64,000 nucleotides of DNA from Gluconobacter kondonii (lineage in GTDB: Bacteria; Pseudomonadota; Alphaproteobacteria; Acetobacterales; Acetobacteraceae). Numbering within the stretch: the stretch's first letter is position 1; each line of letters opens with the position of its first letter. Below are positions 9,452 to 52,478 of the stretch, one piece after another. Made by a program: the position numbers and the translations under genes. A model generated the notes under the pieces. That model had not been told where the DNA came from and searched no databases. It saw only the letters and a program-made list of their open reading frames with translations. Location of the stretch: NCBI RefSeq assembly GCF_002723995.1, contig NZ_BEWP01000009.1, forward strand, positions 1-64,000, read 5' to 3'.

Positions 9452-9477
9452 AGTCTCTCCGATACGAATGTGAGTGC
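9452..9477 (-). promoter_or_regulatory. Transfer-regulon promoter motif (site 1)
   Basis: GCACTCACA (9477 to 9469 on the minus strand), 11 bp, then GAGACT. It faces the operon 9419-8233 and is divergent from site 2, 30 bp away. Confidence 0.6.
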
Positions 9478-9507
9478 GAACATGACCCCAATTGACGCCC
9501 CTGGATC

Positions 9508-9533
9508 GCACTCACATGGGCGCCCGTCATGAT
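9508..9533 (+). promoter_or_regulatory. Transfer-regulon promoter motif (site 2)
   Basis: GCACTCACA at 9508-9516, 11 bp, then CATGAT at 9528-9533, 21 bp before the ATG at 9555, which has a GGAGG ribosome site. Confidence 0.65.
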
Positions 9534-9554
9534 GTCCGCAGGAGGATCAAACCC

Positions 9555-10490
9555 ATGCGCTCTTTCATTCCGATGCTGATACTCGGGGTCCCGGCTGTTG
9601 CCCTGGGGGCCTCGACCTGCCCTGCCGCCGCGCCAGTTCATGCACCCGGTGGCGCCCCCCCTTCGCAGCCCGCGCCTGTTATACCGGAGATGGGACCCAC
9701 GCTTCCGGCTGCTGATATCGCCGCCTCACCTGCCTTGACCCGCCTTGCGAGCCAGGGCGCACAGCTCTATCGGCTGAAATCGGAACACGGCCTTGAGGCC
9801 ATCTTCGCCCGCAGCGGCACGCAGTTCCGTGTCTTTTACCTGACGCCCGATCATCTGGCCGAAATCGGAGGGGTCATGTGGGACGCGACCGGTCATAACG
9901 TCACGCGCGATCAGGTCTCATCAATCCCGGGTGCGATCCCGACCGTGCAATGGAACCCCTCTGCCTCCGGTCAGGGCTCAAGGCCGGGCACTGCATCGAC
10001 AGCAACTGCCCCCCTGATGACAGATCCTGTTGAGCGTGTGAAAGCCGTTGCCTTCGGGCTTGAAGGACAGGACACGGCGCCCCGCGTCTATATGTTTATC
10101 GATCCGCTCTGCCCGTTCTCGACCCGAGCCTATGCAGCTCTGAAACCTGCGGTTGCCTCCGGTCGATTACAACTTGCGATCGTTCCGGTCTCGATCAACG
10201 ATCATGAGAACAGCGGCGCCAGTACGCCGGCTGCGCAGCAGATGCTCTCTGCAAAGCAGCATGACATGGCGGCACTCTGGAACCAGATCGATGACCTTGG
10301 CCATGCTGTTCCAGGCCACACAACATCCGACACGGCGGGCGCCAGCCTGATGCTAAATCTCTCTGCCGCTCATGCGATCGGTCTGAGAGGAACGCCAACC
10401 TTCGTGTGGAAGGATCGCACCGGCACCCCGCATGTTGAGGCAGGACTGCCAGACGATCTCGATGCGTTTCTCGCGAGCCTTCACGCGTGA
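9555..10490 (+). CDS. Thioredoxin-fold DsbC/TrbB-like periplasmic protein with a CPFS active site
   Basis: 311 aa from ATG 9555, with a signal peptide (MRSFIPMLILGVPAVALGA) and a Pro-rich linker. The catalytic thioredoxin-like domain has FIDPLCPFSTRAYAALKP and the cis-Pro loop RGTPTF. The active site is Cys-Pro-Phe-Ser, so the second cysteine of the usual CxxC is missing and only monothiol chemistry is possible. IncI plasmids encode a DsbC-like TrbB near the transfer genes that helps fold disulfide-bonded transfer proteins. The position here suggests an equivalent role. It is the first gene after promoter site 2, and its stop overlaps the next gene (GTGA). Confidence 0.75.
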   Translation: MRSFIPMLILGVPAVALGASTCPAAAPVHAPGGAPPSQPAPVIPEMGPTLPAADIAASPALTRLASQGAQLYRLKSEHGLEAIFARSGTQFRVFYLTPDHLAEIGGVMWDATGHNVTRDQVSSIPGAIPTVQWNPSASGQGSRPGTASTATAPLMTDPVERVKAVAFGLEGQDTAPRVYMFIDPLCPFSTRAYAALKPAVASGRLQLAIVPVSINDHENSGASTPAAQQMLSAKQHDMAALWNQIDDLGHAVPGHTTSDTAGASLMLNLSAAHAIGLRGTPTFVWKDRTGTPHVEAGLPDDLDAFLASLHA

Positions 10491-10939
10491 GCGGTCGTCC
10501 GACAGTAAAACAGCGGACCGGACGCGCCGCGTTATGGCTCGTCTTTCCGTTTGTCTTTGCACTCAGGCCGGGTCTGCGCACAGCGCAGCAAGGTCTTCGG
10601 ATCCTTCAGGACGTTCCCGTGATCCACCCCGTGGACCAGACGGCGTTCGAGGACCAGCCTGTCCGGTCGCTGCAAATGGTGGCCATTCAGAAGCGAACCC
10701 GGACCCTGGGGCGCCTGTATGGAACGCTCTGCCTGCTGGCGAGCCTTTGGTGGGTGGTGCTCATCATGTGGAGCGGTGGGGCCGCTTTCAGCGCGTCCTG
10801 TGTGGAAGCGCTCGCATGCGCGGTTGTTCTGGGAAGCCAGTTTATTACTCAGGGCTTCTCAAACTGGCAGGCCCGGACAGGGCGCGCTGGAAAACTCTCG
10901 GAATATCTTTCGGACGGGCGGCTGCTTTGGCCCCGGTGA
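10487..10939 (+). CDS. Transfer-region membrane protein, 150 aa
   Basis: The GTG start overlaps the stop of the thioredoxin-like gene. There is a short N-terminal hydrophobic stretch (AALWLVFPFVFAL) and a pair of membrane segments at about residues 78-118 (LYGTLCLLASLWWVVLIMW and CVEALACAVVLGSQFI). The topology resembles small inner-membrane accessories of IncI systems such as TraX, but no motif proves this. It converges with the lipoprotein gene at 10959, with a hairpin between them. Confidence 0.6.
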   Translation: MSGRPTVKQRTGRAALWLVFPFVFALRPGLRTAQQGLRILQDVPVIHPVDQTAFEDQPVRSLQMVAIQKRTRTLGRLYGTLCLLASLWWVVLIMWSGGAAFSASCVEALACAVVLGSQFITQGFSNWQARTGRAGKLSEYLSDGRLLWPR

Positions 10940-10950
10940 GGCCATTCCGT

Positions 10951-10970
10951 GGGACGTCTCAGAACGTCCC
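10951..10970. terminator. Hairpin between convergent operons
   Basis: GGGACGT-CTCAGA-ACGTCCC is a perfect 7-bp stem located where the plus operon (ending 10939) meets the minus operon (ending 10959). There is no T-run, so termination efficiency is uncertain. Confidence 0.4.
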
Positions 10971-11267
10971 GGACTGAGCGGCTTTGCGGTCAATCGACCA
11001 GGCAGCTTTTTCGTAATCGGGTCGATCGCCCTGATCGACCGGGTCGTTGGGTTTGACAATGGTTCCTGCCCGTGTGGCCAGTGCAGGACGCCAGATGACA
11101 GGCGCAGACCCGTAAGGCGCGTACGGATCGTAAAGCGCCTGCTTCACCTTGGGGGGTGGTGGCACATTGTAAGACGAGAGCGAACGAATGTTGCCGTGAG
11201 CGCAGGCTGACAGGTTGATCAGTAAAGACAGGCCCGCAACACCTTGTCTCAACGTAATGACCGTCAA
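10959..11267 (-). CDS. Small lipoprotein of the DotA operon
   Basis: 102 aa from a TTG start that overlaps the stop of the preceding gene (TTGA). The lipoprotein signal ends in LLINLSAC-A. The mature part is Pro-rich and then carries PVIWRPALATRAGTIVKPND. It is the last gene of the minus-strand operon that contains dotA. It is probably an outer-membrane lipoprotein of the secretion channel. It is too short to be a second DotD, and no family was recognised. Confidence 0.6.
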   Translation of the reverse strand: MTVITLRQGVAGLSLLINLSACAHGNIRSLSSYNVPPPPKVKQALYDPYAPYGSAPVIWRPALATRAGTIVKPNDPVDQGDRPDYEKAAWSIDRKAAQSGTF

Positions 11268-11587: not shown

Positions 11588-11599
11588 TATCCGTTCTCC

Positions 11600-13909: not shown

Positions 13910-13914
13910 TGTTT

Positions 13915-17530: not shown

Positions 17531-17556
17531 ACCTTAATGATGCGAGATGTGAGTGC
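17531..17556 (-). promoter_or_regulatory. Transfer-regulon promoter motif (site 3)
   Basis: GCACTCACA (17556 to 17548, minus strand), 11 bp, then TAAGGT. It drives the seven-gene operon 17497-10959 including dotA. The rest of 17557-17850 holds only a small hairpin (GGGAAT/ATTCCC at 17671-17688). Confidence 0.55.
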
Positions 17557-17872
17557 GCGCCGCACCGTGGCGTCCACAGGTGACTGGTCTGGCAGTGGAA
17601 AACATAGTCGCGAGACGTTCCGTTTCCGTCACAATCGAGGCCAAAAACTGAAACGTGAGCTATGCAAAATGGGAATGGGGGTATTCCCAGAACGCGGACG
17701 CGGCCATTTTCCGGACTCCGCTGCCCGTTCCACGCACTGTTGCAGAAATACACAGTTCCCAAAAAACGCCGCTCTTGCGGTAACATTTTGAGACGCATCC
17801 GGTTAGGCTGAATGACGATAAATTAACGATCTACCGGATGTATAGAATACCATGCAGGCAAGGAATAACGAA

Positions 17873-18610
17873 GTGACGTTCCATCATAGCATGGTTCTTC
17901 CATGGGCTAATGTGCCTACCGAAAGAATATCTCGCCTACTGACAGGTACAAAAGTATTAATAGAACGTAAAGAAACTTCGTTAAAGCGCTCGAACACCAG
18001 AAGGTTATGGTCTCAGGATGAGACGAACGCGCTCGTAAAATGCTATCCGACCGACACGGCGATCACAGTCATTGCCGAAAGGATCGGAAGAACTCCGCAG
18101 GCTGTCACGAACAAGGCAAAGCGCCTCGGGCTCCGGCGTCCGCTGACGCTCAAGCGCCAACGTGCGGCAGAAGCACGAAAAAACCAGCTTATTGCTCCCA
18201 AGCTCGATCAGGGTCTCGCATCTGCAACATTAGGGGTCTTCCCGAAAACCGCGTCTGGGAGAGCCATCTGGAACACCCATTCTCTGCATCTTCTGGCCGA
18301 TCTCTGGAAGCGGCTCTACTCACCAGCCTTTATCTCTGAATACTTCGGACTGAAGTATAATACTGTCTGCATGGCTGCGAAGAGAGCAGGCCTTCCAAGC
18401 CGGGCCGGTTTCACTTTGTTACGGAAATCTCCCACCGAAAATCCATTTTCTGTTGCCGAAAATGCAACACTCGCCAGTCAGATGATCGCGCGGACCTGTG
18501 GCATCACGAACACAGTTTTCTTCCAACACCCGAAAGACCGTCGCCAGCAGCATTACAGCTACCTTGGCAGTCGCCTCGTCGAAAAACGCGCATCCGGATG
18601 CTTTCACTGA
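17873..18610 (+). CDS. Double helix-turn-helix (GcrA/Myb-like) putative regulator
   Basis: 245 aa from a GTG at 17873 that has AAGGA 8 nt upstream. An ATG at 17852 lies just 3 bp after a TATAGAAT -10-like box (17841-17848) and so is less likely. It contains two similar winged or homeodomain-like modules: RLWSQDETNALVKCYPTDTA followed by AERIGRTPQAVTNKAKRLGL, and later LLADLWKRLYSPAFISEYFG with KYNTVCMAAKRAGLPSRAG. These resemble GcrA/SANT-type DNA-binding helices. It lies directly upstream of and coupled to dotI, and it lacks the ACTCACA promoter. It is a candidate regulator of the transfer genes (inference). Confidence 0.6.
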   Translation: MTFHHSMVLPWANVPTERISRLLTGTKVLIERKETSLKRSNTRRLWSQDETNALVKCYPTDTAITVIAERIGRTPQAVTNKAKRLGLRRPLTLKRQRAAEARKNQLIAPKLDQGLASATLGVFPKTASGRAIWNTHSLHLLADLWKRLYSPAFISEYFGLKYNTVCMAAKRAGLPSRAGFTLLRKSPTENPFSVAENATLASQMIARTCGITNTVFFQHPKDRRQQHYSYLGSRLVEKRASGCFH

Positions 18611-19257
18611 TGCGTAATGCGTCTGCTGCTATCAGCCGAAGACTTCTTGATCCCGAGTTTCTTCAGCGCGTCATCAAACGTGGACTCATCGCGTTTTCAG
18701 GAAGTCTCGTGCTGAACGTCATTCTTGGATTGGCGCTCACGGTGTTGGTAATGAAAACACCGCATGTTCGCTACATTTACCATGACTCACTTGGGAAACC
18801 CCGCGAGCTAATCGTCACGGATCAACCTTATTTTTCGGACTCCGAGGTGATCAATTGGGCCGCCAGGAAAGTCACCAATCTCTATACGATGGATTTCGTG
18901 AATTATGCGAAGCATCTGGACAACTCTGCCAAAGACTTCGACCTTCCCGCATGGAATGCCTGGGGCCAGTCCTTCTCCGGGCCGGGTAATATCGAGTTTA
19001 TTAAGTCCAAACGTGTTTTCCTGACTGCCACACCGAAGAGTGCGCCATCGATACGTTCCGAAGGAAAAACAAGAACGGGCGACTATGAGTGGCATGTTTC
19101 ATTTCCGATGCTGCTCAAATGGGAAAATGCGTCGGGCTCGACCACCAATCTTCTGGCGGTTGACGTAACCATCAGGCGCACCAACAGTCCCGAGCATCCT
19201 GATGGGCTTGTCATCACCGAACTCAATGCGCCTCGCGCCGCCGATAACGGGGGCTGA
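18610..19257 (+). CDS. dotI: DotI/IcmL/TraM family inner-membrane core protein
   Basis: The ATG at 18610 overlaps the TGA of the regulator (TGATG); an in-frame ATG at 18598 is possible. One membrane segment lies at residues ~28-50 (GSLVLNVILGLALTVLVM), followed by a VirB8-like periplasmic domain with VRYIYHDSLGKPRELIVTDQ and TMDFVNYAKHLD. DotI (IcmL, TraM) forms the inner-membrane ring of type IVB systems. It starts the run dotI-dotH-dotG-... that has the Legionella icmLKEGCDJB order. No frame damage seen. Confidence 0.9.
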   Translation: MRNASAAISRRLLDPEFLQRVIKRGLIAFSGSLVLNVILGLALTVLVMKTPHVRYIYHDSLGKPRELIVTDQPYFSDSEVINWAARKVTNLYTMDFVNYAKHLDNSAKDFDLPAWNAWGQSFSGPGNIEFIKSKRVFLTATPKSAPSIRSEGKTRTGDYEWHVSFPMLLKWENASGSTTNLLAVDVTIRRTNSPEHPDGLVITELNAPRAADNGG

Positions 19258-20184
19258 ATGCACGTCGCAATCAAAATGGTTCTCGGGATTCTGCTACTAG
19301 CGGTTCCCGACACGGTGGTCTGCGCACAGACCACGCGGGACAGCAATGGAGCGCCACGGGTTGATCCCATTTATGAGGGTTTGCCGCCACCGCCGAGTGC
19401 GATGCAAAACCTCTATGACCGGTTCGATCAGGGCCAAAGAAACCTTGATGCGCAAGACGACCCGCATCGGCTCGCCACTCCGGCATCCCGTTCGGTTCGT
19501 GTGTCCCTCGCTCCCGGCGCTCAAACCAACATTATCAGAATTGCGCAGGATTATCCCGCAGCGATCACGTTTCTTGATGAAACAGGCCAAGCATGGCCAA
19601 TTGCGTGGAATATTGCCACCAACAAAAGCGGTGGCTGCGATGCACAGGGACAGGGGCAAAACTCGGCCGTGCGGAGTGTGGGTATCAACGCCTGCGTACC
19701 GGAAGCGGGGTCTAATGTTCTGCAGCTCACGCCCATTTCGCGATATGCCCACGGTGGTCTCCTGGTCAACCTCAAGGGAGCCCCAAAGCCAATATCATTT
19801 ATGGTTATCAGTGGCACGGGAACCTACGACGCGGACCTGACTGTGCGGGTTGCTGCACGCGGACCAAACGCAAAAGACGCCCCGAACCTTGAACCCGACG
19901 CGCCCGCCACAGGTGATCGCAATCTGGACGCGATGCTCGATGGCGCACCGCCCGCTGATGCTGTTCCATTAGTCGTTTCTGGCGTGAGTCCGGATCGGAT
20001 CAGAGCGTGGAAGCTGGGGGACAAAATGTACCTCCGCACGGATTACACGCCGATTTCTCCAGCTCCAACCGCTCATGAATCTGAATACGACGTCGGAATC
20101 TATGAGATCCCGCAGACATCAAAGGTGCTGTTGTCCTCAGGTGCCCGGATTGTCTCAGCTACACTTTCGGAGGATGGCCCGTGA
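19258..20184 (+). CDS. dotH: DotH/IcmK/TraN family outer-membrane core protein
   Basis: 308 aa with a signal peptide (VLGILLLAVPDTVVCA-Q). Conserved features are GLPPPPSAMQNLYDRFDQGQ, the beta-rich domain (SVRVSLAPGAQTNIIRIAQD, ITFLDETGQAWPI) and a C-terminal domain (VSPDRIRAWKLGDKMYLRTD). DotH with DotC and DotD makes the outer-membrane core of type IVB systems. Its C-terminal part is related to VirB9. It abuts dotI and overlaps dotG. Confidence 0.9.
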   Translation: MHVAIKMVLGILLLAVPDTVVCAQTTRDSNGAPRVDPIYEGLPPPPSAMQNLYDRFDQGQRNLDAQDDPHRLATPASRSVRVSLAPGAQTNIIRIAQDYPAAITFLDETGQAWPIAWNIATNKSGGCDAQGQGQNSAVRSVGINACVPEAGSNVLQLTPISRYAHGGLLVNLKGAPKPISFMVISGTGTYDADLTVRVAARGPNAKDAPNLEPDAPATGDRNLDAMLDGAPPADAVPLVVSGVSPDRIRAWKLGDKMYLRTDYTPISPAPTAHESEYDVGIYEIPQTSKVLLSSGARIVSATLSEDGP

Positions 20185-21428
20185 CCGACGCCCCATCAGG
20201 ACCGAGCTCGGCCGCTCGTGGCTTTGCATCCAGTATCAAGTCCTCCCGCCGCCCCGCCTTTGCGGCTGCGGGCCTCCTGCTTTTCGCCGCGGGCGGGTGG
20301 TACATCATGAGCCACGGATCTGCGCCGAAACCGAAATCGGCAGCGTTGCAGACCCCGAACCTTGCGCCACCTGCGGGAGGCAATAATCATTCCGACAAGC
20401 TGGACAGCGCGACGCTCCAAAAAGAAAAGGCCGATGCCGATGCTGCTAAGGCCCATGGAAAATCTTTTGCGAGTGCGCTGACAACAAACAGGCCTCTTGG
20501 GGACGATAAGGCGCCACTTTTGAATGGGATGCCCGGTACGGGTTCGGCAACACAAGCTGGCGTCACCCCGCCTGGTACAGCCCACACGTCGCCACCGCCC
20601 GCAGTGAACCAGTTCACGCGCGCTCCAGCAGGAACAAAGGCCGCCCCAGCACCACCGGCCAGCCGTGTGCGGCGACCGGGAGAACTTTCCGAAGCGCAGG
20701 AGGTCGAGCTTTTGGCAGCATGGAGCGGACGGGCGGGCTCATTGGACATGGAACTTCCGGCCGAATCTGTCGCAGCGAGCGCCCATAAGCAGGCGAACGC
20801 CTCTTTTACCCAAGAGCCGCAGTCCTCTCAATCAAGCGCAAGTGCTGCACAACAAAATGCGGCGACGGTAAAACCGGCAACCCACAGGCTCCTTGCCGCA
20901 GGACGTGGCGTCTATGGTCATTCCGTACTCGGCATCAATAGCGACTATCCCGGCACGCCCGTACTCGTCGAAGTTGATTCAGGATCACTGGCCCACGACA
21001 GGCTGTCTGGCTCCTTTGAACGCAAAGACGAACGGCTGGTTATCAAGTTCGATAAACTTATGATCGGGGACAGCGATCCTTTGCCGGTCTCGGCTTATGC
21101 TGTGGCACCCGACACCATGGAAACGGGCCTCGCTTCGGAAGTTCAGGAGCATCTCGCGACGCGCATCTTTCTTCCGGCCGCTGCTGCTTTTGTCGAAGGT
21201 CTTGGCAACGCCATGCAGAACTCAAACACAAACAGCGTCACAAGCGGGCTTGGCGTAAGTTCGTTTACGCATCTGACGTTGCCTCAACAGCTTGCCGTCG
21301 GTGCCGGACGGGCCGGACAGGAGATGGGCCAGCTCCTGCAAAAACAAACGCCGCAGAACCCCACGGTCCTTTTGCACAAGGACGATCCTATCGGAGTGAT
21401 TTTCACGGACCCCGTCGACGTCCCCTGA
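20181..21428 (+). CDS. dotG: DotG/IcmE/TraO family VirB10-like channel protein
   Basis: 415 aa from a GTG overlapping the dotH stop (GTGA). It has a cytoplasmic N-terminus, one membrane segment at residues ~32-50 (FAAAGLLLFAAGGWYIM), a Pro/Ala-rich periplasmic linker and a C-terminal VirB10-like beta-barrel domain (VYGHSVLGINSDYPGTPVLV, LVIKFDKLMIGDSDPLPVSA). DotG spans both membranes and lines the channel. It is shorter than Legionella DotG (~1,050 aa) because the long pentapeptide-like repeat region is absent, as in plasmid TraO proteins. Confidence 0.9.
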   Translation: MTDAPSGPSSAARGFASSIKSSRRPAFAAAGLLLFAAGGWYIMSHGSAPKPKSAALQTPNLAPPAGGNNHSDKLDSATLQKEKADADAAKAHGKSFASALTTNRPLGDDKAPLLNGMPGTGSATQAGVTPPGTAHTSPPPAVNQFTRAPAGTKAAPAPPASRVRRPGELSEAQEVELLAAWSGRAGSLDMELPAESVAASAHKQANASFTQEPQSSQSSASAAQQNAATVKPATHRLLAAGRGVYGHSVLGINSDYPGTPVLVEVDSGSLAHDRLSGSFERKDERLVIKFDKLMIGDSDPLPVSAYAVAPDTMETGLASEVQEHLATRIFLPAAAAFVEGLGNAMQNSNTNSVTSGLGVSSFTHLTLPQQLAVGAGRAGQEMGQLLQKQTPQNPTVLLHKDDPIGVIFTDPVDVP

Positions 21429-21430
21429 CT

Positions 21431-21456
21431 GCACTCACAACGGCCTCTGGCATCCT
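21431..21456 (+). promoter_or_regulatory. Transfer-regulon promoter motif (site 4)
   Basis: GCACTCACA at 21431-21439, 11 bp, CATCCT at 21451-21456. The ATG of the next gene is 29 bp downstream behind AGGAGGGA. Confidence 0.65.
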
Positions 21457-35650: not shown

Positions 35651-35676
35651 GCACTCACAAAGACCCGTTCGATAAT
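35651..35676 (+). promoter_or_regulatory. Transfer-regulon promoter motif (site 6)
   Basis: GCACTCACA at 35651-35659, 11 bp, GATAAT at 35671-35676, the best -10 match of the set. It drives the major pilin pilS, 29 bp downstream with an AGGGG ribosome site. Confidence 0.7.
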
Positions 35677-39703: not shown

Positions 39704-40141
39704 ATGTGGCAAAACCCTCTCTGCCGACCTTTCGGCCTTACCCTCCTGCTACTGTCAGGCCTCTGTGCCTGCAGCGAGCAGCCTCGGCCGCCTGTGCGCC
39801 CCTTCGATCAAGACATGAATCATATTCTGTCCGCCTTAGACCAAATTGGCGCCCTCCGTTTTCCTCTCGTCCGGGCGGGTTCGGTTCTTCCAGCCGAGAT
39901 GAACCGGCCTGTCAGCTGGCACTGGCAGGGTCCGCTCGATGAGGGCATCAGGCTAATTGCCAGGCGGGTTGGCTATGAGACCGAGATTCCGCCATGCCCT
40001 GCACCACCGATCATAGCTGTGGATCAGCAGGCGACCACGTTCGGTCGCTTGCTGGACGAGATGGCCTCCGCGTCATCCGGCCATGCCGACATCTGGGTTG
40101 ATATCCCTCACCACGTCATAAGGATTACCTGGAATGCATAA
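39704..40141 (+). CDS. dotD: DotD/TraH family outer-membrane lipoprotein
   Basis: 145 aa. Lipoprotein signal LLLSGLCAC-S. The secretin-N1-like domain shows VSWHWQGPLDEGIRLIARRV, GYETEIPPCPAPPIIAVDQQ and IWVDIPHHVIRITW, the DotD pattern. DotD targets DotH to the outer membrane together with DotC. It is the first gene after promoter site 7 and its stop overlaps dotC. Confidence 0.85.
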   Translation: MWQNPLCRPFGLTLLLLSGLCACSEQPRPPVRPFDQDMNHILSALDQIGALRFPLVRAGSVLPAEMNRPVSWHWQGPLDEGIRLIARRVGYETEIPPCPAPPIIAVDQQATTFGRLLDEMASASSGHADIWVDIPHHVIRITWNA

Positions 40142-44289: not shown

Positions 44290-44292
44290 TCT

Positions 44293-44318
44293 GCACTCAC
44301 AAACGCCTGTCGGATACT
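44293..44318 (+). promoter_or_regulatory. Transfer-regulon promoter motif (site 8)
   Basis: GCACTCACA at 44293-44301, 11 bp, GATACT at 44313-44318. It drives the membrane protein at 44348 and dotL. Confidence 0.7.
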
Positions 44319-44347
44319 GCACAGGCGTCTAATTGTTGAGGTCCGCA

Positions 44348-44728
44348 ATGATCATATCTGTTCCACCTGACACACAGTCCGTTTCTATTCGTCGTGAAGG
44401 GGAACGGACCATTATCGTTCTTGACCAGGACATTCTCTCAGAGTTATCCGCCAGTGCCTGCCCTGTAGAGGCGGCCCCCATCACCAGCGCAAGACAACCG
44501 CGCAGAGCCAGACGCTTCCGCCTTCCTGTCCTCGTCGGCGTCTGTGTGATTGTCATAGGGGCAGCCGCAGGCCACCGGCTATGGGCTTCGGCCAAAAATA
44601 GCCAAGCGCATCCTGTCGCTGCACTGCAAGTCCCTCAACTGGTGGGCCCTGCTCCCGCGACCCGACGTTCCATTCCGGCCGCGTCGCAAGCCGCGCCCGT
44701 GCCAAACAACGCGTTCGGGTTGGAATAA
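44348..44728 (+). CDS. Single-pass membrane protein upstream of dotL, 126 aa
   Basis: ATG 44348 (TGAGGT upstream; the TTG at 44333 is a less likely start). A cytoplasmic N-terminus with SVSIRREGERTIIVLDQDIL leads to one membrane helix (LPVLVGVCVIVIGAAAG) and a Pro/Ala-rich periplasmic tail. It is co-transcribed with dotL, 2 bp apart. No family recognised. A role in the coupling complex is suggested only by position. Confidence 0.6.
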   Translation: MIISVPPDTQSVSIRREGERTIIVLDQDILSELSASACPVEAAPITSARQPRRARRFRLPVLVGVCVIVIGAAAGHRLWASAKNSQAHPVAALQVPQLVGPAPATRRSIPAASQAAPVPNNAFGLE

Positions 44729-44730
44729 TC

Positions 44731-46980
44731 ATGGCGATGATCAGACGCCGTATTGACGGGCCTCAGGACTTTCACGAGCAAAAGGGGGGGCTGGCATTCC
44801 GCGATACCCGCGGCGTGCCACATCAGGTCGCAGAAATCCTGCGAACCGGGTTCTCGTCCATCGGGCTCGTTGCAATGGCTGGCGTATCCGTCGCTGTCCC
44901 AGCACTGACAACCGCCATTGTACCGCTGGCCATTGCCTATGCAGGCTATGTTCTGACACGGCCAGTGACATTGCCTCTGCGCTTGCCGGCAAACGCGAAG
45001 GGGAAGGACTACGGTAATCCGCAGCCAGACCCAAAACGACCTGGCGTCGAAATCCCGGGCAAGCCTTCGGGAGACTGGCTGCTCGGCTGGGATGAAGTCA
45101 CCGCCCAACAGGTGTGGCTATCGGGCAATGATATGACGATGCACGCCATCCTGCCTGGATCCACAGGATCCGGCAAAACGCAGTTTATCTACAGTCTTCT
45201 GTGCAATGCGCTGGCACAGGGGGGCGGGTTCACGATTGTCGACGGCAAAGCCTCGAACAACCTTGCCTTCTCCGTCGCGGCCATGGCGAGACGGTGGGGT
45301 CGGGAAGCCGATCTGCGCTTTATCAACATGATGGTCTCGGCTGGTGACAGAAAGACCAACACCTGGAATCCCTTTTCCTCCGTCAACGCTGAAGGCATGA
45401 CGGAGCTTCTGCTCACGCTTTTTCTTCCGGAGGACAAGAAAGGCGGCGGCGGTAACTCCGCGCATTTCCGGGACAGGGCCGAGGCGCTTATTCGTGGCAT
45501 GTCCTATGTCTTTGTCTGGGTCCGGGACAACCTTGGCATTCCTATCATGTCCGAGACGATCCGGACGATGTTCTCTGATATCGTCAAACTGCGCGATCTC
45601 TACCAGGATAAGATCTTCACCTACTATGATGCGGACTCAGGCGAGGCGCGCAAAGTCGAACTGCCTGCAGAGTTTGACGGTACTCTACTGAACCCTGTCC
45701 GCGACTACGTGACGGAAACAGGCGGCTTCTCGAACACCAAGAGCGTGGGAGACCAGGACAAAGTTCGCGAACAGCATTCCTATGTTGTGGGTGGTTTCGG
45801 CAAAACGTTCACCCAGATGAGCTCCACACTGGGACATATCTTCCGGTGCAACATCGGCGACGTGGACTTCCGGGACGTCATTTTCAATCGACGCATCCTC
45901 GTCGTGCTTCTCCCCTCGCTCGAAAATCATCCGGACACGAACGCCGCACTCGGCAAGGCGGTCATCACGGCGCTGCGTTACGCACTGGCGGCAGCACTCG
46001 GAACCTCCATCGAGGGTGACTATGAGGATCGCGTCGTAAATCGTGCGTCGTCCTCTGCTGTGCCCTATCCTTTAGTCTTGGACGAGGTCGGTCAATTCGC
46101 GACACGCGGGATCGACGCAATGATGGCGTTGGGGCGTGAACTGAATATTTCCCTGCTTCTGGCTTTTCAGGAAGTAGGCACCCTCGAAGCAACGCTCGGG
46201 AAAGACCTAACCGTTCCGCTTCTCGGCAACCCAAAGCTCAAAATCTTTGAAAATGTAGAGGACGCTGGTCCTACCCGGGAGTGGATCGAAAAATCAGGCG
46301 GAACGATGCCTGTCAGCGTCCTTCCCGGCTTCGACAGTTCCAACCCTCTCGGCGTCTATGCAGACCAGCAACGCGCAGACATTCGGGACGTCAAGCGGAT
46401 CTCCTGGAGCGACGTACAGAACCTCCGCCCCGGGCAAGCCATCATTCTCTTCCGAGGCAAGCGAATTTACACACGATTATTCCACGCAGGAATCAAACCA
46501 GAAGGCGTGAACAGGGTGTTCCCCACAGTTTCAGCGGCTCCAGCCCTTCCGGCACCCGTATCACAGGAGCCGACTACAGAAGGTGTCGAGGTGGCTCACC
46601 GGCTTCAGGAAGGGCGCGACCGGATCGAAAAGGCTGATCTCCGGCCATTAACCGGAGTTCTGGGAGATCTGTATCAGCGCCTCGGCGTCGTTCTCAAGAC
46701 GGAAGGTACGCCCTTGCAGGACGCACAGGAGCTCCTGACCCTGCTTTTCCCTGATGAGACCCCGGCAGACGACAAGCCTTTCGCAAAGCTGTTTGAGACC
46801 CTCGTCCCTCCGTCCGCTCAGTTGCCCCGAACAACGGAACCGCTTCATCCGCACCTGGACAAAGCATTGCTGGCAGAACTGGTTGCGTTCGAGACAACTC
46901 TCGGACAGGACGAGCGTGCGGCTGTTGAGACCGTCACGCACGCCCTGAATCTTTACGCGCGTGGTCAGGAACTCGCCTGA
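44731..46980 (+). CDS. dotL: DotL/IcmO/TrbC type IV coupling protein
   Basis: 749 aa. Two N-terminal membrane helices (~45-75), then a VirD4-type ATPase with Walker A GSTGSGKTQF (143-150), FTIVDGKASNNLAFSVAAMA, Walker B YPLVLDEVGQFATRGIDAMM and RELNISLLLAFQEV. A C-terminal extension of ~130 residues would bind adaptors (DotN, IcmS-type). It recruits the relaxosome to the secretion channel. A hairpin terminator follows at 46986. Confidence 0.92.
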   Translation: MAMIRRRIDGPQDFHEQKGGLAFRDTRGVPHQVAEILRTGFSSIGLVAMAGVSVAVPALTTAIVPLAIAYAGYVLTRPVTLPLRLPANAKGKDYGNPQPDPKRPGVEIPGKPSGDWLLGWDEVTAQQVWLSGNDMTMHAILPGSTGSGKTQFIYSLLCNALAQGGGFTIVDGKASNNLAFSVAAMARRWGREADLRFINMMVSAGDRKTNTWNPFSSVNAEGMTELLLTLFLPEDKKGGGGNSAHFRDRAEALIRGMSYVFVWVRDNLGIPIMSETIRTMFSDIVKLRDLYQDKIFTYYDADSGEARKVELPAEFDGTLLNPVRDYVTETGGFSNTKSVGDQDKVREQHSYVVGGFGKTFTQMSSTLGHIFRCNIGDVDFRDVIFNRRILVVLLPSLENHPDTNAALGKAVITALRYALAAALGTSIEGDYEDRVVNRASSSAVPYPLVLDEVGQFATRGIDAMMALGRELNISLLLAFQEVGTLEATLGKDLTVPLLGNPKLKIFENVEDAGPTREWIEKSGGTMPVSVLPGFDSSNPLGVYADQQRADIRDVKRISWSDVQNLRPGQAIILFRGKRIYTRLFHAGIKPEGVNRVFPTVSAAPALPAPVSQEPTTEGVEVAHRLQEGRDRIEKADLRPLTGVLGDLYQRLGVVLKTEGTPLQDAQELLTLLFPDETPADDKPFAKLFETLVPPSAQLPRTTEPLHPHLDKALLAELVAFETTLGQDERAAVETVTHALNLYARGQELA

Positions 46981-46985
46981 TATCT

Positions 46986-47016
46986 GAGGCGGCATGTCCC
47001 CAGCCGCCTCTGTTTT
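46986..47016 (+). terminator. Terminator between dotL and the convergent relaxase gene
   Basis: GAGGCGGC and GCCGCCTC form an 8-bp GC stem around a 9-nt loop, followed by TGTTTT. Confidence 0.65.
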
Positions 47017-47021
47017 CCAAA

Positions 47022-50000
47022 CTACATACCGCGTCCTGCACCACGAACCCGCGTGCGATCGCGCTCCCGCTCTTGTTCCTGTGCAGCAGCGCGAGCCTGC
47101 CGCAGCCGGTCTTCGGCCTGCTGCGCTCTCCGACGCTCCTGCAGATCTTCAACCCGCCGCGCTGCATTCAGGGCGTCCTGCGCGGCATAGCCGGCCTTAC
47201 GCAGCTTGCGACTGACATCATCCCATTGCGCGCGCGGCACATCCCGGATCGGGGCTTCCTCAACCTGACGACGCACCTGACCGCCCGGTGACTGCCCCTT
47301 CTGGCGCGCGCGCTCATTGACGTGGTTCTGTCGGATCCAGCGCGTATTGGCTTCCTCATGCACGAGACGGGCTTTCGCAAGATCGACGGCCAGGGATTTG
47401 TAGGGATGACGGCCCATGTCAGACGCCAAGCGGTCATACAGATCGGTGACCGTCACCGGCCGGATGTCGCCAAGAGCCCGCGAGAACGTCTCGGCCTCCC
47501 GGAGAGAGCCCTCCGATACGGCCGTCCAGCAGCGATGAACATGCCGGCTTTCGGCAACATAGGACGTAAAGCCTGTCATGGCCGAGGATCCACGCGGCAT
47601 GGCGTTGATATGCTCGTCGGACGTCACACCCTGCGCCGCATCAACTGTCATAGCGTGACCAAAGCCCAGACGGATGCGTCCGGTCTTCGGGTCGGCCAGC
47701 CGGGTCCAGGGCACGAGCCCTTCCCGTCCCTTTGCGTTCTGTAGAACCAGTCCCTCATCAGACCAGCCCCTGACGGTCGTGAAGTCACCATTCGAGCCAA
47801 GATCACGCCAGCGGCGCCCATGGGGGGTGTCCACCCGGACGCTGGTTTTTGCAAACAGCCGAACCCTGTCACCGACTGCGAGAGGCAGCTCATAGGTGAC
47901 GCCACGCTGATCGATGGCGGCCTTGACGATCTCCGCCTGACCGATCTCGCCACGCTTGCGCAGCCGGTCGCGGACGGCACGGCTAAGATCCATAACGTCT
48001 TCGTTCGTCGGCGCAGACATGGTGATGCCCCGTTGCGATCCGGCCTGGGCCAGCATGTCGCGGCGTCGAAGATACAGGTCAGCGATCTGCTCGACGACCT
48101 GATCATGATCGCCGCCCACAAGTCGGATGGTGCCGTCCTTGCGCTTCATGTCGATTGCTTCACGCGCCCGCGCAATATCGGCTTTCTTCTGCTCGTCCTC
48201 AGTCTGGCTCAGATCGCGGCCGGGACTACGGAACATGCTGGCGATCTGCCGACCGCGCGCGGACTTCTGGCGGATTGTGCTCAACAGCTCCGGACGCGCT
48301 TCTTTGGGCATGACACGCAAAAGCAGTTCAACAGCATCACCGGCCTCGATCGCCTGGGCCTGTTCGCGGTCGCCCACCACCCGGAGGGCAAAGCCCTTCT
48401 CCTGCTGAAGCTGGAGGATCTCGAGCAGCTGACGCGGGGAGACCTGACTGACTTCATCAAGAACCAGAACGGACTGCCGATCGAGGACGATCTTTCCCTG
48501 CGCAAGGCCGTCCAACAGAGGTGTCATCGCGTAGGTCTGGGAAATGCCCGCATCCTTCAGCGCATCGGCCTGACGCCAGGCAATGGCCGCGCCAATGACG
48601 GTGCGGCCATCCTCCTGCCAGGCATCGACCAGAGGCTTGAGAAGCGTCGTTTTGCCGGAGCCGGCGACACCAATCAGGAAGCCCAGTCCGCCCGCCTGAC
48701 CAAGCGCATTGATGGCTGAAAGCTGCGCAGCGCCGTGTGCCGGTTCGCGTGTGAAGTCGAGACCCGACCGGGCAACGGCAGCGGAAATCTGCTCGTCACT
48801 GAGCGCGCCGTCCCGCGTCCGCGCAGACAGGCCGGCAAGACGGGCCATGTCCTTTTCAAGGGCGATCTGGGCACTTGTCGCGACCCGGAGGCGGCCATCC
48901 TGCTCGCGCTCAAGGAAGCGGACCTGTTGGCCGTCGATCTCAATGCCGCGCTCCTGGATCAGATCGGCAATCCGCTCGATGTCCCGCATGTCTTCAATGC
49001 CAGCCGCAATGAGACCCCGTGCGGCATGGGTCCGGAACGTGTCCCGGTCGAGAACAGCAGCTGTCCGAAACTCCTCAGCCAATTTCTTAGCCGCAATCGC
49101 ATAGGCCTGCTCGTAGCGCTCAGCGCGCCCTAATGGCTGGACCTTCTCATTGGTCAGGACAGTATCGTGATACCACCCGATTTCGTGAGCCTGCTCAAGC
49201 CAGAACTCCCTGTCGTTGCTGCCATTGTACTTCTTTGAGCGGTAAGCGAGATTTGCGTTGTGAAGGATTGAAAACTTCCGCTCGGCCGACAAATCGTTCC
49301 AGTCCAGGCCCTGCCGTTTGGCATAGGCTTTTCCCATTTTCTCCGCCTGGGAATGCCGCTTTGAAAAAAGCTCACAGGCTTCTCGCGGCACACTATCAAT
49401 CGCGATTGCGCGGCCACTCTCGTCGACGTGTACCGCGATACCGAGCTTGCGAAGTTCGCTTGCAAGTTCCGCCTGAAAATACGCCCCGAACATGAAAGAC
49501 GTCGCACTGGTAATGCGAGCACTGTCCAGCGAACCCAAATGGCCGCTTTCGGTCGCTACGGCATTCAAAAGCAGATTGTGAATATGCGCCTGTGGGTCCC
49601 CCGGCACCGGAACTTCCACCGCCGCCGTGGGGCCTTTTGCGCCATCCTGAATCTTCATGACCGGTCGTGCCGTGTAGTGCCGGAACGATACCCACGCGAC
49701 TTCCCCCCGTTCCAGCGTGGCTGTCTTTCCTGACCCTCTGCGCGCCACGCCAACCTCTTTGGCAATAAACGCCATAGCCTTGTCGTTGGCCTTGTGAATT
49801 GCGCTCCAGATGAGCGCCCGCTCGGCATCCGTCGACGCAAATTCAGCGGCAAGCGTCACTGATTTATCGGGTGACGCTGTGAAGTCGATGGCCGAGTGCT
49901 CACGCTTCCGGCCTGTGTTGGCCCATTTTTCACCTGTGTCAGCGCGCTTCGCTTCGAACAGATTGGCCAGCGCCTGGTCTGTCGGCACCTTCATGACGTC

Positions 50001-50225
50001 AATGCCTAGCGCATCAGCGATCCGGGGGGCCATATCTGGCGACCACATTCCCCGCCCATCACGTCCGGTATAGTAGGTTGTCAGCCGGTCACCGTTTTCA
50101 CGGGTCGGATCACTCCGTTCCCGTTCAAAGCGGGCATCCTTCTCCGGCTCGGACTGATTCTCTCTCAGATAAGCGACGATCAGCTTACCGGCACCTGCCG
50201 CAGAAATCTTCCGGTAAGTGATCAT
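47022..50225 (-). CDS. MobF family relaxase-helicase (TrwC/TraI-like)
   Basis: 1,067 aa. The N-terminal relaxase domain has a Tyr pair (TTYYTGRDGRGMW, ~51-52) and the HUH metal site (PQAHIHNLLLN, His ~214 and 216). The helicase part has GVAGSGKTTLLKPLVDAW, VLVLDEVSQVSP and GHAMTVDAAQGVTSDEH, as in RecD2-like TrwC/TraI helicases. The C-terminus is a basic coiled coil. It nicks oriT, stays bound to the transferred strand and unwinds it. IncI-type systems usually work with MobP (NikB) relaxases, so this pairing is unusual. It overlaps the small gene upstream by 4 bp. Confidence 0.92.
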   Translation of the reverse strand: MITYRKISAAGAGKLIVAYLRENQSEPEKDARFERERSDPTRENGDRLTTYYTGRDGRGMWSPDMAPRIADALGIDVMKVPTDQALANLFEAKRADTGEKWANTGRKREHSAIDFTASPDKSVTLAAEFASTDAERALIWSAIHKANDKAMAFIAKEVGVARRGSGKTATLERGEVAWVSFRHYTARPVMKIQDGAKGPTAAVEVPVPGDPQAHIHNLLLNAVATESGHLGSLDSARITSATSFMFGAYFQAELASELRKLGIAVHVDESGRAIAIDSVPREACELFSKRHSQAEKMGKAYAKRQGLDWNDLSAERKFSILHNANLAYRSKKYNGSNDREFWLEQAHEIGWYHDTVLTNEKVQPLGRAERYEQAYAIAAKKLAEEFRTAAVLDRDTFRTHAARGLIAAGIEDMRDIERIADLIQERGIEIDGQQVRFLEREQDGRLRVATSAQIALEKDMARLAGLSARTRDGALSDEQISAAVARSGLDFTREPAHGAAQLSAINALGQAGGLGFLIGVAGSGKTTLLKPLVDAWQEDGRTVIGAAIAWRQADALKDAGISQTYAMTPLLDGLAQGKIVLDRQSVLVLDEVSQVSPRQLLEILQLQQEKGFALRVVGDREQAQAIEAGDAVELLLRVMPKEARPELLSTIRQKSARGRQIASMFRSPGRDLSQTEDEQKKADIARAREAIDMKRKDGTIRLVGGDHDQVVEQIADLYLRRRDMLAQAGSQRGITMSAPTNEDVMDLSRAVRDRLRKRGEIGQAEIVKAAIDQRGVTYELPLAVGDRVRLFAKTSVRVDTPHGRRWRDLGSNGDFTTVRGWSDEGLVLQNAKGREGLVPWTRLADPKTGRIRLGFGHAMTVDAAQGVTSDEHINAMPRGSSAMTGFTSYVAESRHVHRCWTAVSEGSLREAETFSRALGDIRPVTVTDLYDRLASDMGRHPYKSLAVDLAKARLVHEEANTRWIRQNHVNERARQKGQSPGGQVRRQVEEAPIRDVPRAQWDDVSRKLRKAGYAAQDALNAARRVEDLQERRRAQQAEDRLRQARAAAQEQERERDRTRVRGAGRGM

Positions 50226-50500
50226 CTTCCAGCCGGTGCAGAGAAGGTGGAAGCTTCAAGCCGGCCAAGCTGCGCCGAGATTGTCTCAAGGGCGGCACCC
50301 TGCTGTTCCATGGCCTGAGCCATGCGCGCGACGACCTCGACCAGGCCCTCGCCTTCTTCTGCTTTCTCTGGAGGGCTGACCATCTGATGGATTTGGGCGA
50401 GCGTCTCCCCGATCTGATCCAGCCGTTGCAAAACGAGGAGTTGAAACGGCGCTTCGCGATCTACCGGTTGCGGGAGGTCAAATACGTTTTCGTCTGGCAT
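50222..50500 (-). CDS. Small acidic coiled-coil partner of the relaxase, 92 aa
   Basis: The ATG at 50500 lies behind GGAGAC. Helical throughout (FQLLVLQRLDQIGETLAQIH; LVEVVARMAQAMEQQGAALE). Its stop overlaps the relaxase start, so the proteins are made together. It may be a relaxosome accessory factor, although no DNA-binding motif (such as the RHH of TrwA) is visible. Driven by promoter site 9. Confidence 0.6.
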   Translation of the reverse strand: MPDENVFDLPQPVDREAPFQLLVLQRLDQIGETLAQIHQMVSPPEKAEEGEGLVEVVARMAQAMEQQGAALETISAQLGRLEASTFSAPAGR

Positions 50501-50526
50501 GCATCGTCTCCGTGGGCAAAGGAGAC

Positions 50527-50552
50527 ATTTTGCTCGAGGTGGTTGTGAGTGC
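50527..50552 (-). promoter_or_regulatory. Transfer-regulon promoter motif (site 9)
   Basis: GCACTCACA (50552 to 50544, minus strand), 11 bp, CAAAAT at 50532-50527, 26 bp before the ATG of the relaxase operon. Confidence 0.65.
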
Positions 50553-50604
50553 TCGCCGACAAAAACTGTCGCTCCGAGCCCACATCGTCTCAGAGACTAT
50601 CTGC

Positions 50605-50988
50605 CTAGCCGTCGCATCCCACCAGGAGCGCAATCTGACGTCTGATGGCAGCAAGCTGATCAGATCTCACTTTGCTGCCTGTCACGGTGACACGTTGCTT
50701 GGATGTGGTGGTGAGCAGAGCACTGACCGCCCAACAGGGTTTAGAACAACCGTTCTCGGATGTTGGGTCGATCCGTACTGCCAGATCCGGAATGACGAGG
50801 TTCTCATCGTCGGTCAGCGGCACAAGCATCACGTTCGGCCACTCAGGCGGAAAGAGGTCGTCTTCGACAACAACAGCCGGCCGACGCTTGTTGGGCTCCT
50901 TCGGCAGCGCATCTCCACGCCAGTCTGCCAGCACAATTTCTCCAGGCGAGAAGATCGCTGCCATGGCGACCGGCCGATCAGGAGCCAT
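50605..50988 (-). CDS. PemK/MazF-type toxin
   Basis: 127 aa from ATG 50988, overlapping the antitoxin stop. The PemK/MazF core is visible: FSPGEIVLADWRGDALPKEP, NKRRPAVVVEDD, NVMLVPLTDDENL and SDQLAAIRRQIALLVGCDG. Family members are mRNA endoribonucleases that act in the cytoplasm and stabilise plasmids by post-segregational killing. It is paired with the RHH antitoxin directly upstream. Alternative starts (ATG 50964) exist. Confidence 0.8.
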   Translation of the reverse strand: MAPDRPVAMAAIFSPGEIVLADWRGDALPKEPNKRRPAVVVEDDLFPPEWPNVMLVPLTDDENLVIPDLAVRIDPTSENGCSKPCWAVSALLTTTSKQRVTVTGSKVRSDQLAAIRRQIALLVGCDG

Positions 50989-51214
50989 GGGTTCCGCCAG
51001 CCTCTTCAAAAAGCGCCTGGGCGGAAGGCGTCGCAGCGACGTAGCGGGCAACACGCGCACTGTCCCTGCGGATACGGTCTCGGCGCGCACTCTTTGCCCC
51101 TGTCTCCAGAAGATCACGGATGAGTTGGCTCAGAGGAATACCGCGTGCTGTTGCTTCCTGCTCCAGGTCGGTGCGCAACCGCTCGTCCAGACGGATCGAA
51201 AGGGGGGATGCCAT
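50978..51214 (-). CDS. Ribbon-helix-helix antitoxin
   Basis: 78 aa from ATG 51214 (GGAG 7 nt upstream; a further ATG at 51226 is possible). Starts MASPLSIRLDERLRTDLEQE, a beta strand followed by two helices (GIPLSQLIRDLLE) typical of RHH/CopG antitoxins. The C-terminal tail would wrap the toxin. The overlapping toxin gene and a promoter with an embedded palindrome fit an autoregulated type II module. Confidence 0.8.
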   Translation of the reverse strand: MASPLSIRLDERLRTDLEQEATARGIPLSQLIRDLLETGAKSARRDRIRRDSARVARYVAATPSAQALFEEAGGTHGS

Positions 51215-51243
51215 GACACACTCCATACATTCAGAACGTCATT

Positions 51244-51273
51244 AATGTAGCGCACTGTCGTAGTGCAGAACAA
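51244..51273 (-). promoter_or_regulatory. Autoregulated promoter of the toxin-antitoxin operon
   Basis: On the minus strand: TTGTTC, 18-bp spacer, TACATT. The palindrome GCACT-GTCGT-AGTGC (51252-51266) occupies the spacer, a usual place for antitoxin binding. Confidence 0.55.
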
Positions 51274-51314
51274 CATATTTGGCAGAGCAGAATGCGATGA
51301 GAGGTCTTCAGCCC

Positions 51315-51488
51315 GGGTCAAACCCTGCCCCGCCGGATGCAACACCCGCAGGGTGGCGCGAAGCGCAAACTGAAAGTTTGCATTTGTGTATGGAAAAAGA
51401 AAAACTCTGTAGCTTTCTTGTAGTCGTTAGTAGTCGACGCGTAGCTCTTACGTAGTCGATTGTAGTCGATTGGTAGTCGTGTTAGGGT
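51315..51488. repeat. Palindrome and phased-repeat region: candidate oriT or partition site
   Basis: Three inverted repeats: GGGT-CAA-ACCC (51315-51325), ACCCTG...CAGGGT (51322-51327 and 51349-51354) and the perfect GCAAACTGAAAGTTTGC (51365-51381). Then TAGTCG, or the variants TAGCTT and TAGCTC, begins at 51410, 51421, 51431, 51442, 51453, 51463 and 51474. The steps are 10-11 bp, one DNA turn. The region is non-coding, lies between the toxin-antitoxin module and the accessory mobilization genes, and is ~0.9 kb from the relaxase operon. It could be oriT, a centromere-like site or an operator array. Confidence 0.6.
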
Positions 51489-51537
51489 GCCCCTTAGAGA
51501 TGCGCAGCAGCCGCACAACGGCCACGGGAGGCACCAC

Positions 51538-52440
51538 ATGGCAGCGACAGGTATCGGGATCAGCGGGGCCATTGGCGCGCTTGAAAACGTGTCTGGAGCG
51601 ATGTCGCTGCGCGTGTGGATGGAAGCGAACCGCGAAGAGCTACTGCGGGCATGGAACGGGCGTCGTTTGAACTGGCAGGCCTTGTGCGCATGGTTCAAAG
51701 ACGTTGGATTAACCAATGCTGATGGGCAGGCACCGACTGTACGATGTGCCAAAATGACGTGGTATCGGGCAGGCAAGACATTGGCTGCCCGAAAGGACCG
51801 TGCAGTGGCAGAGGCGAACGGTCCTTCTCGTGATCAAGCGGCTCGCAGAACTGTCGCACCGACAGACAAAGCGCGGTCTGGCCCCTCTGATGAAGAGATC
51901 CTTGCCCTCATGGCTGAAGCCGATAATGAGGAGCGTCTCAACAGGGAGCGTCGTGAGCGGATCGCAGGCTATGAGGCACAGCGCAGAACCACGGCGGAGT
52001 CCAAAGGGAATGGCGTTCAGTCAGAGGTACCCGTCGAGGCCGCCCAGTCCGAACCTGCACCTCTAGAAACCGCCACCCGACCCCGGATCAAAATCGGGCA
52101 GATCGCCAACCATGTGACGATGCTCAAGCAGGCTCCCCGCTATGGTGCGGACAGGGACAAGCCACTCCCGCCGCCTTATGTCGGGCCTCGGCCTGATGGA
52201 ATGCCGGAATATCTGCCGCTCGATGCCCTCATGCCTCTCGATGCGACGGGGCGTCAGCCCGATGGTCGCATCGATTATGAGGCGCTACCGGGACTGCCAC
52301 GACGCTCGTTTTTTGAAAGTGAGCGCGAATGGGCCAAGGCGTGTATCCCGATGGTTGAGGCAGTCCCGCATGAAGATCGCTCTATCGTCCTGAAAGCCCT
52401 CCTTATGCGGTCCCGTGATCGCATGAAAAGCCTATACTGA
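51538..52440 (+). CDS. Hypothetical protein downstream of the phased repeats, 300 aa
   Basis: ATG 51538 behind GGGAGG. The N-terminal ~75 residues (MSLRVWMEANREELLRAWNG, NWQALCAWFKDVGLTNADGQ, TVRCAKMTWYRAGKTLAARK) look like a small helix-turn-helix-type domain as found in plasmid mobilization or regulatory proteins. A charged middle part (EEILALMAEADNEERLNRER) and a Pro-rich C-terminus follow. The phased repeats directly upstream could be its binding site (inference). No family recognised. Confidence 0.6.
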   Translation: MAATGIGISGAIGALENVSGAMSLRVWMEANREELLRAWNGRRLNWQALCAWFKDVGLTNADGQAPTVRCAKMTWYRAGKTLAARKDRAVAEANGPSRDQAARRTVAPTDKARSGPSDEEILALMAEADNEERLNRERRERIAGYEAQRRTTAESKGNGVQSEVPVEAAQSEPAPLETATRPRIKIGQIANHVTMLKQAPRYGADRDKPLPPPYVGPRPDGMPEYLPLDALMPLDATGRQPDGRIDYEALPGLPRRSFFESEREWAKACIPMVEAVPHEDRSIVLKALLMRSRDRMKSLY

Positions 52441-52452
52441 GCGCTCTTGCTC

Positions 52453-52478
52453 GCACTCACATACGGTGTCCGCATACT
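52453..52478 (+). promoter_or_regulatory. Transfer-regulon promoter motif (site 10)
   Basis: GCACTCACA at 52453-52461, 11 bp, CATACT at 52473-52478, in front of the ParA-like gene at 52530. Confidence 0.65.

Follow-up and report, generated by a model that had tools for sequence, protein, structure and literature searches.

We describe here ten promoter-like elements in a 64,000-nucleotide (nt) stretch of DNA from Gluconobacter kondonii, hereafter the window, which is the first 64 kb of the 109-kb contig NZ_BEWP01000009.1 (C9). Each element is composed of the 9-mer GCACTCACA followed, after exactly 11 bp, by a hexamer of the form NANNNT (eleven specified letters), a combination that we refer to as the exact box. 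In the aggregate, our observations from sequence comparison indicate that the ten boxes are probably promoters that depend on an activator and together serve a plasmid-wide transfer regulon; the likely activator is a small helix-turn-helix protein that we call HTH2. An initial annotation of the window had proposed one such regulon, with the box in the place of a -35 element, and this proposal is supported by orthologous promoters in diverged plasmids, by the absence of a -35 signal, and by the clustering of boxes on a single contig.

All ten boxes were found precisely where the initial annotation had placed them, versus 0.02 expected in the window, and ten were reached in none of 100 shuffled sequences. 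There are 12 copies of the 9-mer itself in the window, against an expectation of 0.55; at 4344 and 11700 it stands without the hexamer, as had also been reported. When up to 2 mismatches were allowed over the eleven specified letters, the window yielded 18 sites against 14.4 expected (10 exact and 8 with two mismatches), and the same scan detected no box with a single mismatch. No spacer other than 11 was enriched: among 17 occurrences on C9 of the shorter core ACTCACA, 14 have NANNNT at spacer 11, and each of the other spacers scanned (5 to 19) accounted for 0–2. The corresponding figures for spacer 11 are 14/16 on plasmid pGOX1 of G. oxydans 621H and 7/12 on Neokomagataea contigs.

The exact box occurs 14 times in the whole genome (3.27 Mb), and a reversed-pattern control gave 0 matches. 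Twelve of the 14 lie on C9, namely the ten within the window and those at 73669 and 80484 on the minus strand, with one each on contigs C32 and C23. Two further minus-strand sites on C9, at 73295 and 71137, keep the geometry and carry one mismatch each, in the first two bases of the 9-mer. Counting these, C9 contains 14 boxes, all with the core ACTCACA, and ten sites was thus too low an estimate of regulon size, the more so because an operon encoding putative regulators lies outside the window. Exact matches were present in 98 of 397 genomes of the same family, mostly one or two apiece; higher counts were found in the window's own genome (G000, 14) and in G339 (15), G180 (10), G323 (9) and G390 (3).

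The contig resembles pGOX1. A 20-kb piece matched pGOX1 with 52% coverage and 83.5% identity, and a G. thailandicus plasmid with 36% coverage (at the best place) and 83.9% identity. Both of these plasmids are typed as MPF_I/MOBF conjugative elements, and they contain 13 and 12 exact boxes, respectively.

We compared the hexamer with published G. oxydans promoters, for which the sections of the source drawn on here give a -10 of nAtnnn (first position T 40%, C 39%) and a -35 of ttGnnn (PMC5756330). The box hexamers fit this Gluconobacter sigma-70 -10, and C is the most frequent first base on most plasmids. Upstream, at 109 sites on 8 plasmids, no match of at least 5/6 to TTGACA, the sole -35 form tested, was found at spacings of 15–19, and the mean best match was 2.4–3.1 of 6, versus 2.5–2.9 at random positions. 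TG precedes the -10 at 14 of the 109 sites, a count that has no control set. The sites therefore combine a sigma-70 -10, no TTGACA-type -35 and a conserved site in the -35 region, which are the features of class II sigma-70 promoters. The first ATG begins exactly 6 nt past the hexamer at 13/109 sites (1.6% at random positions) and 5–7 nt past it at 19/109 (4.8% at random positions), figures that overstate the significance, because orthologous sites are non-independent and the random positions were not restricted to gene starts. Leaderless mRNAs beginning 7 nt past the -10 would yield the 6-nt spacing. Within the window, this would fit the gene starting at 27413, whose ATG lies 6 nt past the hexamer of the 27381 box, and, at 7 nt, the DotD gene starting at 39704 behind the 39671 box; both are predicted to be leaderless.

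More diverged plasmids exhibit the same layout in other letters. Their boxes are spelled GCACCCACA, GGCGTCACA, TCAGTCGCA, CCRTTCGCA and in other ways, and the 11-bp spacing is constant. When we searched de novo for 8-mers ahead of NANNNT, with offsets of 8–18 (11 in all), the top 8-mer was the box in C9 and in pGOX1; in the same register, the top sequences were ACCCACA for Komagataeibacter saccharivorans CP023039, CGTCACA for Acetobacter orientalis AP018516 and CCCACA for A. vaccinii CP043507. Scores, each followed by the best of 8 shuffles and by the reversed-sequence control, were 18.7, 5.4 and 5.9 for C9; 18.6, 6.1 and 5.3 for pGOX1; 23.7, 4.8 and 5.6 for A. orientalis; 10.2, 4.6 and 7.5 for K. 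saccharivorans; and 9.2, 5.3 and 9.2 for CP043507. Spacer 11 accounted for 8/15 cores in K. saccharivorans, 19/37 in A. orientalis, and 20/69 and 13/40 in the two A. vaccinii plasmids, where the core is looser. A second group of plasmids, found through distant HTH2 homologs, has boxes of the TCGCA type: AGTCGCA in G. oxydans H24 (spacer 11 in 16/28, other spacers 0–4), GTCGCA in Kozakia (14/115, others 0–6) and TTCGCA in Roseomonas mucosa (10/45, others 0–3), all three counts being without shuffle controls. Spacer 11 was thus prominent in C9, pGOX1, Neokomagataea, K. saccharivorans, A. orientalis, A. vaccinii, H24, Kozakia and Roseomonas. When spellings were counted over 11 plasmids, each plasmid had most of its own, except that A. 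vaccinii shares the K. saccharivorans spelling and that G. sphaericus CP068420 has 4 sites of its own spelling and 3 with the A. orientalis core. Fixed patterns were used for these counts; an iterated position weight matrix search was abandoned, as it drifted and admitted chance sites to the pGOX1, K. saccharivorans and A. vaccinii CP043508 sets.

The positions of the boxes are also conserved. For K. saccharivorans, A. orientalis, the two A. vaccinii plasmids and the Neokomagataea contigs, we looked for the nearest lineage-specific box no more than 450 nt upstream of, or 60 nt inside, orthologs of the operon-leading genes of C9, with the coupling protein and relaxase counted for their operons. 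A box was present at 36 of 44 such orthologs, whose proteins are 34–65% identical, a figure that comes without a chance rate for the rule, depends on patterns derived from these very plasmids, and for A. vaccinii uses a permissive pattern (24 and 16 matches in all). By set, the counts were 6/7 for K. saccharivorans, 10/13 for A. orientalis, 11/13 and 4/6 for A. vaccinii, and 5/5 for Neokomagataea. Four of the 8 misses are the nuclease gene, and the other four have a box just beyond the rule, at A. orientalis 145670 and 167401, A. vaccinii CP043507 13590, and CP043508 101840 (across the record origin). The relaxase ortholog had a box within 450 nt upstream in every plasmid of this comparison where the relaxase was found, and the 9452 box has an ortholog in Komagataeibacter, A. 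orientalis, A. vaccinii CP043507 and Neokomagataea. The same rule gave no box for HTH2, an internal gene, in 8/8 cases.

Several observations point to HTH2 as the protein that reads the box. HTH2, a second protein that we call wHTH, a GapR-like protein, the relaxase and two proteins with no recognized domain are among those common to pGOX1, the five compared plasmids and the Neokomagataea contigs. An HTH2 profile matched on 11/11 plasmids (E 4e-12 to 2e-79), a result that is partly circular and gives no independent support, because the plasmids were found via HTH2 or are in the profile. More telling, plasmids chosen solely for a distant HTH2 homolog (H24, G. albidus, Kozakia, Roseomonas and A. 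pomorum) turned out to contain boxes with the geometry unchanged, and in these same plasmids a short HTH2-like gene (90–110 aa) has a box to itself, with the start codon 6 nt beyond the hexamer. In other lineages, HTH2 lies downstream of a box-driven wHTH gene on the same strand. Because plasmids picked for distant HTH2 homologs have the box layout, and because HTH2 is itself placed behind a box, HTH2 is the best candidate for the box reader. The recognition-helix motif is EHRT in six lineages with ...CACA boxes and M/V/R-H-(R/Q) in five with ...CGCA boxes, a weak hint that helix and box covary, and one that may reflect a single event.

The proposed mechanism can be stated as follows. The hexamer would be read as a -10 by RNA polymerase with the host's housekeeping sigma-70, and the 9-mer, at about -32 to -24, would be a putative HTH2 binding site that takes the place of the absent -35. 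Through the invariant spacing of 11 bp, the activator would be held on one fixed face of the DNA beside polymerase, in a class II-type and possibly MotA-box-like arrangement. Because the HTH2 operon is itself driven by a box, the circuit probably reinforces itself, presumably once an inducing signal is received. The wHTH and GapR-like proteins accompany HTH2 in Gluconobacter, Neokomagataea, Komagataeibacter and some Acetobacter plasmids. Activator and box would have drifted together, yielding a different box in each plasmid lineage.

There are a number of observations that weigh against this interpretation. No box precedes the nuclease gene in 4/4 diverged plasmids, the HD gene of pGOX1 has no exact core, and the dotI/dotH/dotG operon of the window (17852–21428, plus strand) has no box, although its divergent neighbor has one. 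The variant boxes were counted in the very plasmids that had served to define them. The de novo score of CP043507 equals that of its own reversed control and by itself proves nothing, and in CP043508 the top 8-mer is not the box, which ranks sixth after repeats are collapsed; the A. vaccinii lineage therefore rests on orthologous positions. In the TCGCA group, the Roseomonas score (4.6) is as low as the shuffles of other plasmids, and the box of G. albidus (15 sites) ranks only fifth, with no shuffle control. The box of G. sphaericus CP068420 (5 sites) was not recovered de novo. On 5 of the 8 plasmids, the mean -35 match slightly exceeds that at random positions. With regard to the regulator, in Lichenicola, alone among the lineages examined, no box precedes the gene for the HTH2-like protein, and other shared proteins, including the GapR-like protein and a 218-aa protein, are possible partners. 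The HTH2 model, which has two four-helix units, is of low confidence (mean predicted local distance difference test, pLDDT, 64.5), and Foldseek searches with the HTH2 and wHTH models returned nothing at E 0.001; the best E for HTH2 against solved structures was only 0.024, and PHROGs gave only weak HTH matches.

We considered three other explanations. The initial annotation had left the choice between an activator and an alternative sigma factor, and our results favor the former, because the box varies by lineage, with a -10 that continues to match host sigma-70. A dedicated sigma factor that reads both box and hexamer would account for the rigid spacing and the non-standard upstream element, yet no Pfam sigma family was detected at E 1 in ten proteins of the regulator operon and the operons of unassigned function, and none is named in the pGOX1 feature table, which is incomplete. 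We regard this explanation as highly improbable and set it aside. Alternatively, wHTH, alone or complexed with HTH2, could be the activator that binds the box. In Gluconobacter, Neokomagataea, Komagataeibacter and Acetobacter (orientalis and vaccinii), the wHTH gene is immediately preceded by a box and is retained together with HTH2; the protein has a sub-threshold TrmB match and weak ArsR/MarR-like ones (Table 1), and its model (pLDDT 72.1) has a C-terminal winged helix. However, the wHTH profile gave a convincing match on 7 of the 11 plasmids but not on the four with TCGCA boxes (H24, G. albidus, Kozakia and Roseomonas), all of which share the layout and encode HTH2: two of them had no match, and the other two had marginal ones (E 9e-4 and 5e-3). 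As sole regulator wHTH is rejected, and a role for it as box-binding activator in either form seems rather unlikely.

Finally, the box could be a repressor operator on an otherwise constitutive promoter, with HTH2 silencing both the regulon and itself. Small XRE-like proteins are frequently autorepressors, and one of the families that HTH2 matched in PHROGs is labeled 'transcriptional repressor'. Nevertheless, the 109 sites without a -35 of at least 5/6 would be weak promoters if unaided, and an operator would not require one exact distance to the -10. We consider repression quite unlikely, and prefer activation by HTH2 bound at the box.

The window's genome appears to contain a second system of this kind. 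Contig C29 encodes another HTH2-like protein (E 5e-12) with an AGTCGCA box in front, and AGTCGCA boxes are clustered on C16 (7), C29 (5) and C11 (4), with 0 on C9; the background of this seven-base sequence is high (32 genome matches versus 20 in the control), and only clusters count. Contigs C16, C29 and C11 may thus belong to a second plasmid. The insulation of co-resident plasmids from each other is a plausible reason for box drift. Extending this, we tentatively suggest, as a possibility somewhat short of probable, that Acetobacteraceae plasmids share one-component HTH2 activators that replace the sigma-70 contact at -35 from a single exact position, that their spellings (at least six, all with the 11-bp geometry) constitute mutually insulated transfer switches, and that this host carries two of them.

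The boxes of C9 and the genes behind them are listed in Table 1. The claim that each box precedes an operon for secretion, pilus, relaxase or mobilization functions holds for most, but not plainly for 52453, whose operon has no assigned function, or for 9452 and 9508, which precede transglycosylase and DsbC-like operons.

Table 1. Boxes and candidate regulator genes on contig C9. Gene names in the 9452 and 17531 operons are from pGOX1 orthologs; operon extents are predicted, that of 21431 from gene order.
Feature	Position	Strand	Hexamer	Genes behind the box, or remarks
Box	9452–9477	-	GAGACT	9419–8946 (hypothetical), 8949–8233 (transglycosylase); divergent to 9508 box
Box	9508–9533	+	CATGAT	9555–10490 (DsbC-like; sub-threshold DSBA match), 10487–10939
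Box	17531–17556	-	TAAGGT	leftward operon from 17456, including DotA/TraY (13909–11600)
Box	21431–21456	+	CATCCT	operon from 21486, including DotO (24240–27416)
Box	27381–27406	+	CACACT	27413–28384 (CagX/VirB9-like), then pilus genes; box within dotO 3' end
Box	35651–35676	+	GATAAT	35706–36212 (PilS-type pilin) and subsequent genes
Box	39671–39696	+	CATCAT	39704–40141 (DotD); box within 3' end of preceding gene
Box	44293–44318	+	GATACT	44333–44728, 44731–46980 (coupling protein)
Box	50527–50552	-	CAAAAT	50500–50222, 50225–47022 (MobF relaxase)
Box	52453–52478	+	CATACT	52530–53312, 53309–53956 (conserved, no assigned function)
Boxes beyond window	73694 (also given as 73669), 73295	-		regulator operon
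Box beyond window	71137	-		HD-domain gene
Box beyond window	80509 (also given as 80484)	-		DNA/RNA non-specific endonuclease gene
HTH2	72152–72628	-		8 kb beyond window; HTH_31 and HTH_3 above Pfam cut-off
wHTH (176 aa)				regulator operon; sub-threshold TrmB, weak ArsR/MarR-like matches
GapR-like DNA-binding protein	about 71854–72333 (L076:7854–8333)			directly behind HTH2

The 17531 box has the lowest score of the C9 set. The GapR-like gene is behind HTH2 in the regulator operons of Gluconobacter, Neokomagataea, Komagataeibacter and Acetobacter (orientalis and vaccinii). The 218-aa protein mentioned above (54432–55088, minus strand) has no Pfam match and is 55–61% identical in diverged plasmids, a conservation above that of HTH2. 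The hexamer-free 9-mer at 11700 lies antisense within dotA/traY and is found also at pGOX1 103553 and NZ_CP043044 15473; its retention in the three plasmids probably reflects coding constraint.

Boxes were also observed in other settings. In plasmid NZ_CP102495, typed as non-mobilizable, 6 ACTCACA boxes are retained, as are the regulator genes; the HTH2 of the annotation is a short fragment (L105:8872–9075), yet the frame is open at full length. The sequence GCACTCACA-N11-AATATT is conserved on TCGCA-type plasmids or contigs, at G000:C23:22329, H24 71760 and G. albidus 190611. Also, a module of ~4.5 kb that encodes a tyrosine integrase, a DUF5710-type protein and a VapBC-like pair, and that contains a GCACTCACA box, recurs in several genomes: on G000:C32 (L080, box at 4198, integrase at 5931–7379), in pGOX1 (47610–52140), at L192, L193 and L093, and in part at L194. 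In G302 and G366 it resides on contigs that have an HTH2-like gene and boxes of their own, both TCGCA-type. This module may be a passenger that answers another plasmid's activator, as SGI1 does with AcaCD.

Among the matches listed, literature on pGOX1 or on transfer regulators in acetic acid bacteria contained no such regulator or regulon, and no title on plasmid transfer was returned for the exact GCACTCACA string. The terms 'conjuga' and 'type IV secretion' are absent from the main text of the G. oxydans promoter report (PMC5756330). The boxes are a real and well-bounded promoter class, with a plausible activator, that probably controls the transfer regulon, with a layout that is conserved and letters that drift across Acetobacteraceae plasmids. 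For studies of how acetic acid bacteria control conjugation, the present analysis supplies a candidate activator together with a list of its putative targets. With its fixed geometry and at least six spellings, the system is a natural experiment in which the specificity of an activator and that of more than a dozen sites have changed jointly, and it may offer an insight into how plasmids in one cell avoid cross-talk.

Three known systems are comparable, within the sections of each source drawn on here. ICEMlSymR7A is, as this plasmid would be, an alphaproteobacterial mobile element with transfer under an HTH-type activator: the HTH-variant activator FseA, of the DUF2285 FseA/QseM system, switches transfer (PMC10359603). 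No DUF2285 or DUF6499 match was detected in HTH2 or wHTH with Pfam at E up to 1. Functionally, the nearest analogue is AcaCD of IncC plasmids, an activator of the FlhDC family with 17 major intergenic peaks, mostly before transfer genes, and class II-type promoters without an obvious -35 (PMC4207636, PMC5058578). Here too a plasmid-encoded activator would serve transfer genes that lack a -35, but in the SGI1 promoters studied the -10 is 22–24 bp from the AcaCD site, versus 11 bp here, and a Pfam search at E up to 1 gave no FlhC/FlhD match in HTH2 or wHTH. The closest geometry is that of the phage T4 MotA box, a sequence of ~9–10 bp, centered at -30 and 12 ± 1 bp from a sigma-70 -10, which replaces the -35 (PMC2988021); the box described here is centered at about -28, 11 bp from its -10, likewise with no -35 signal. 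The two differ in that MotA belongs to a phage system that requires AsiA and binds DNA through a half with a double-wing fold, and in that MotA boxes tolerate changes, whereas the boxes described here are nearly invariant within a plasmid. If insulated HTH2 switches are indeed shared by Acetobacteraceae plasmids, the HTH2 family would be the plasmid counterpart of phage sigma appropriation.

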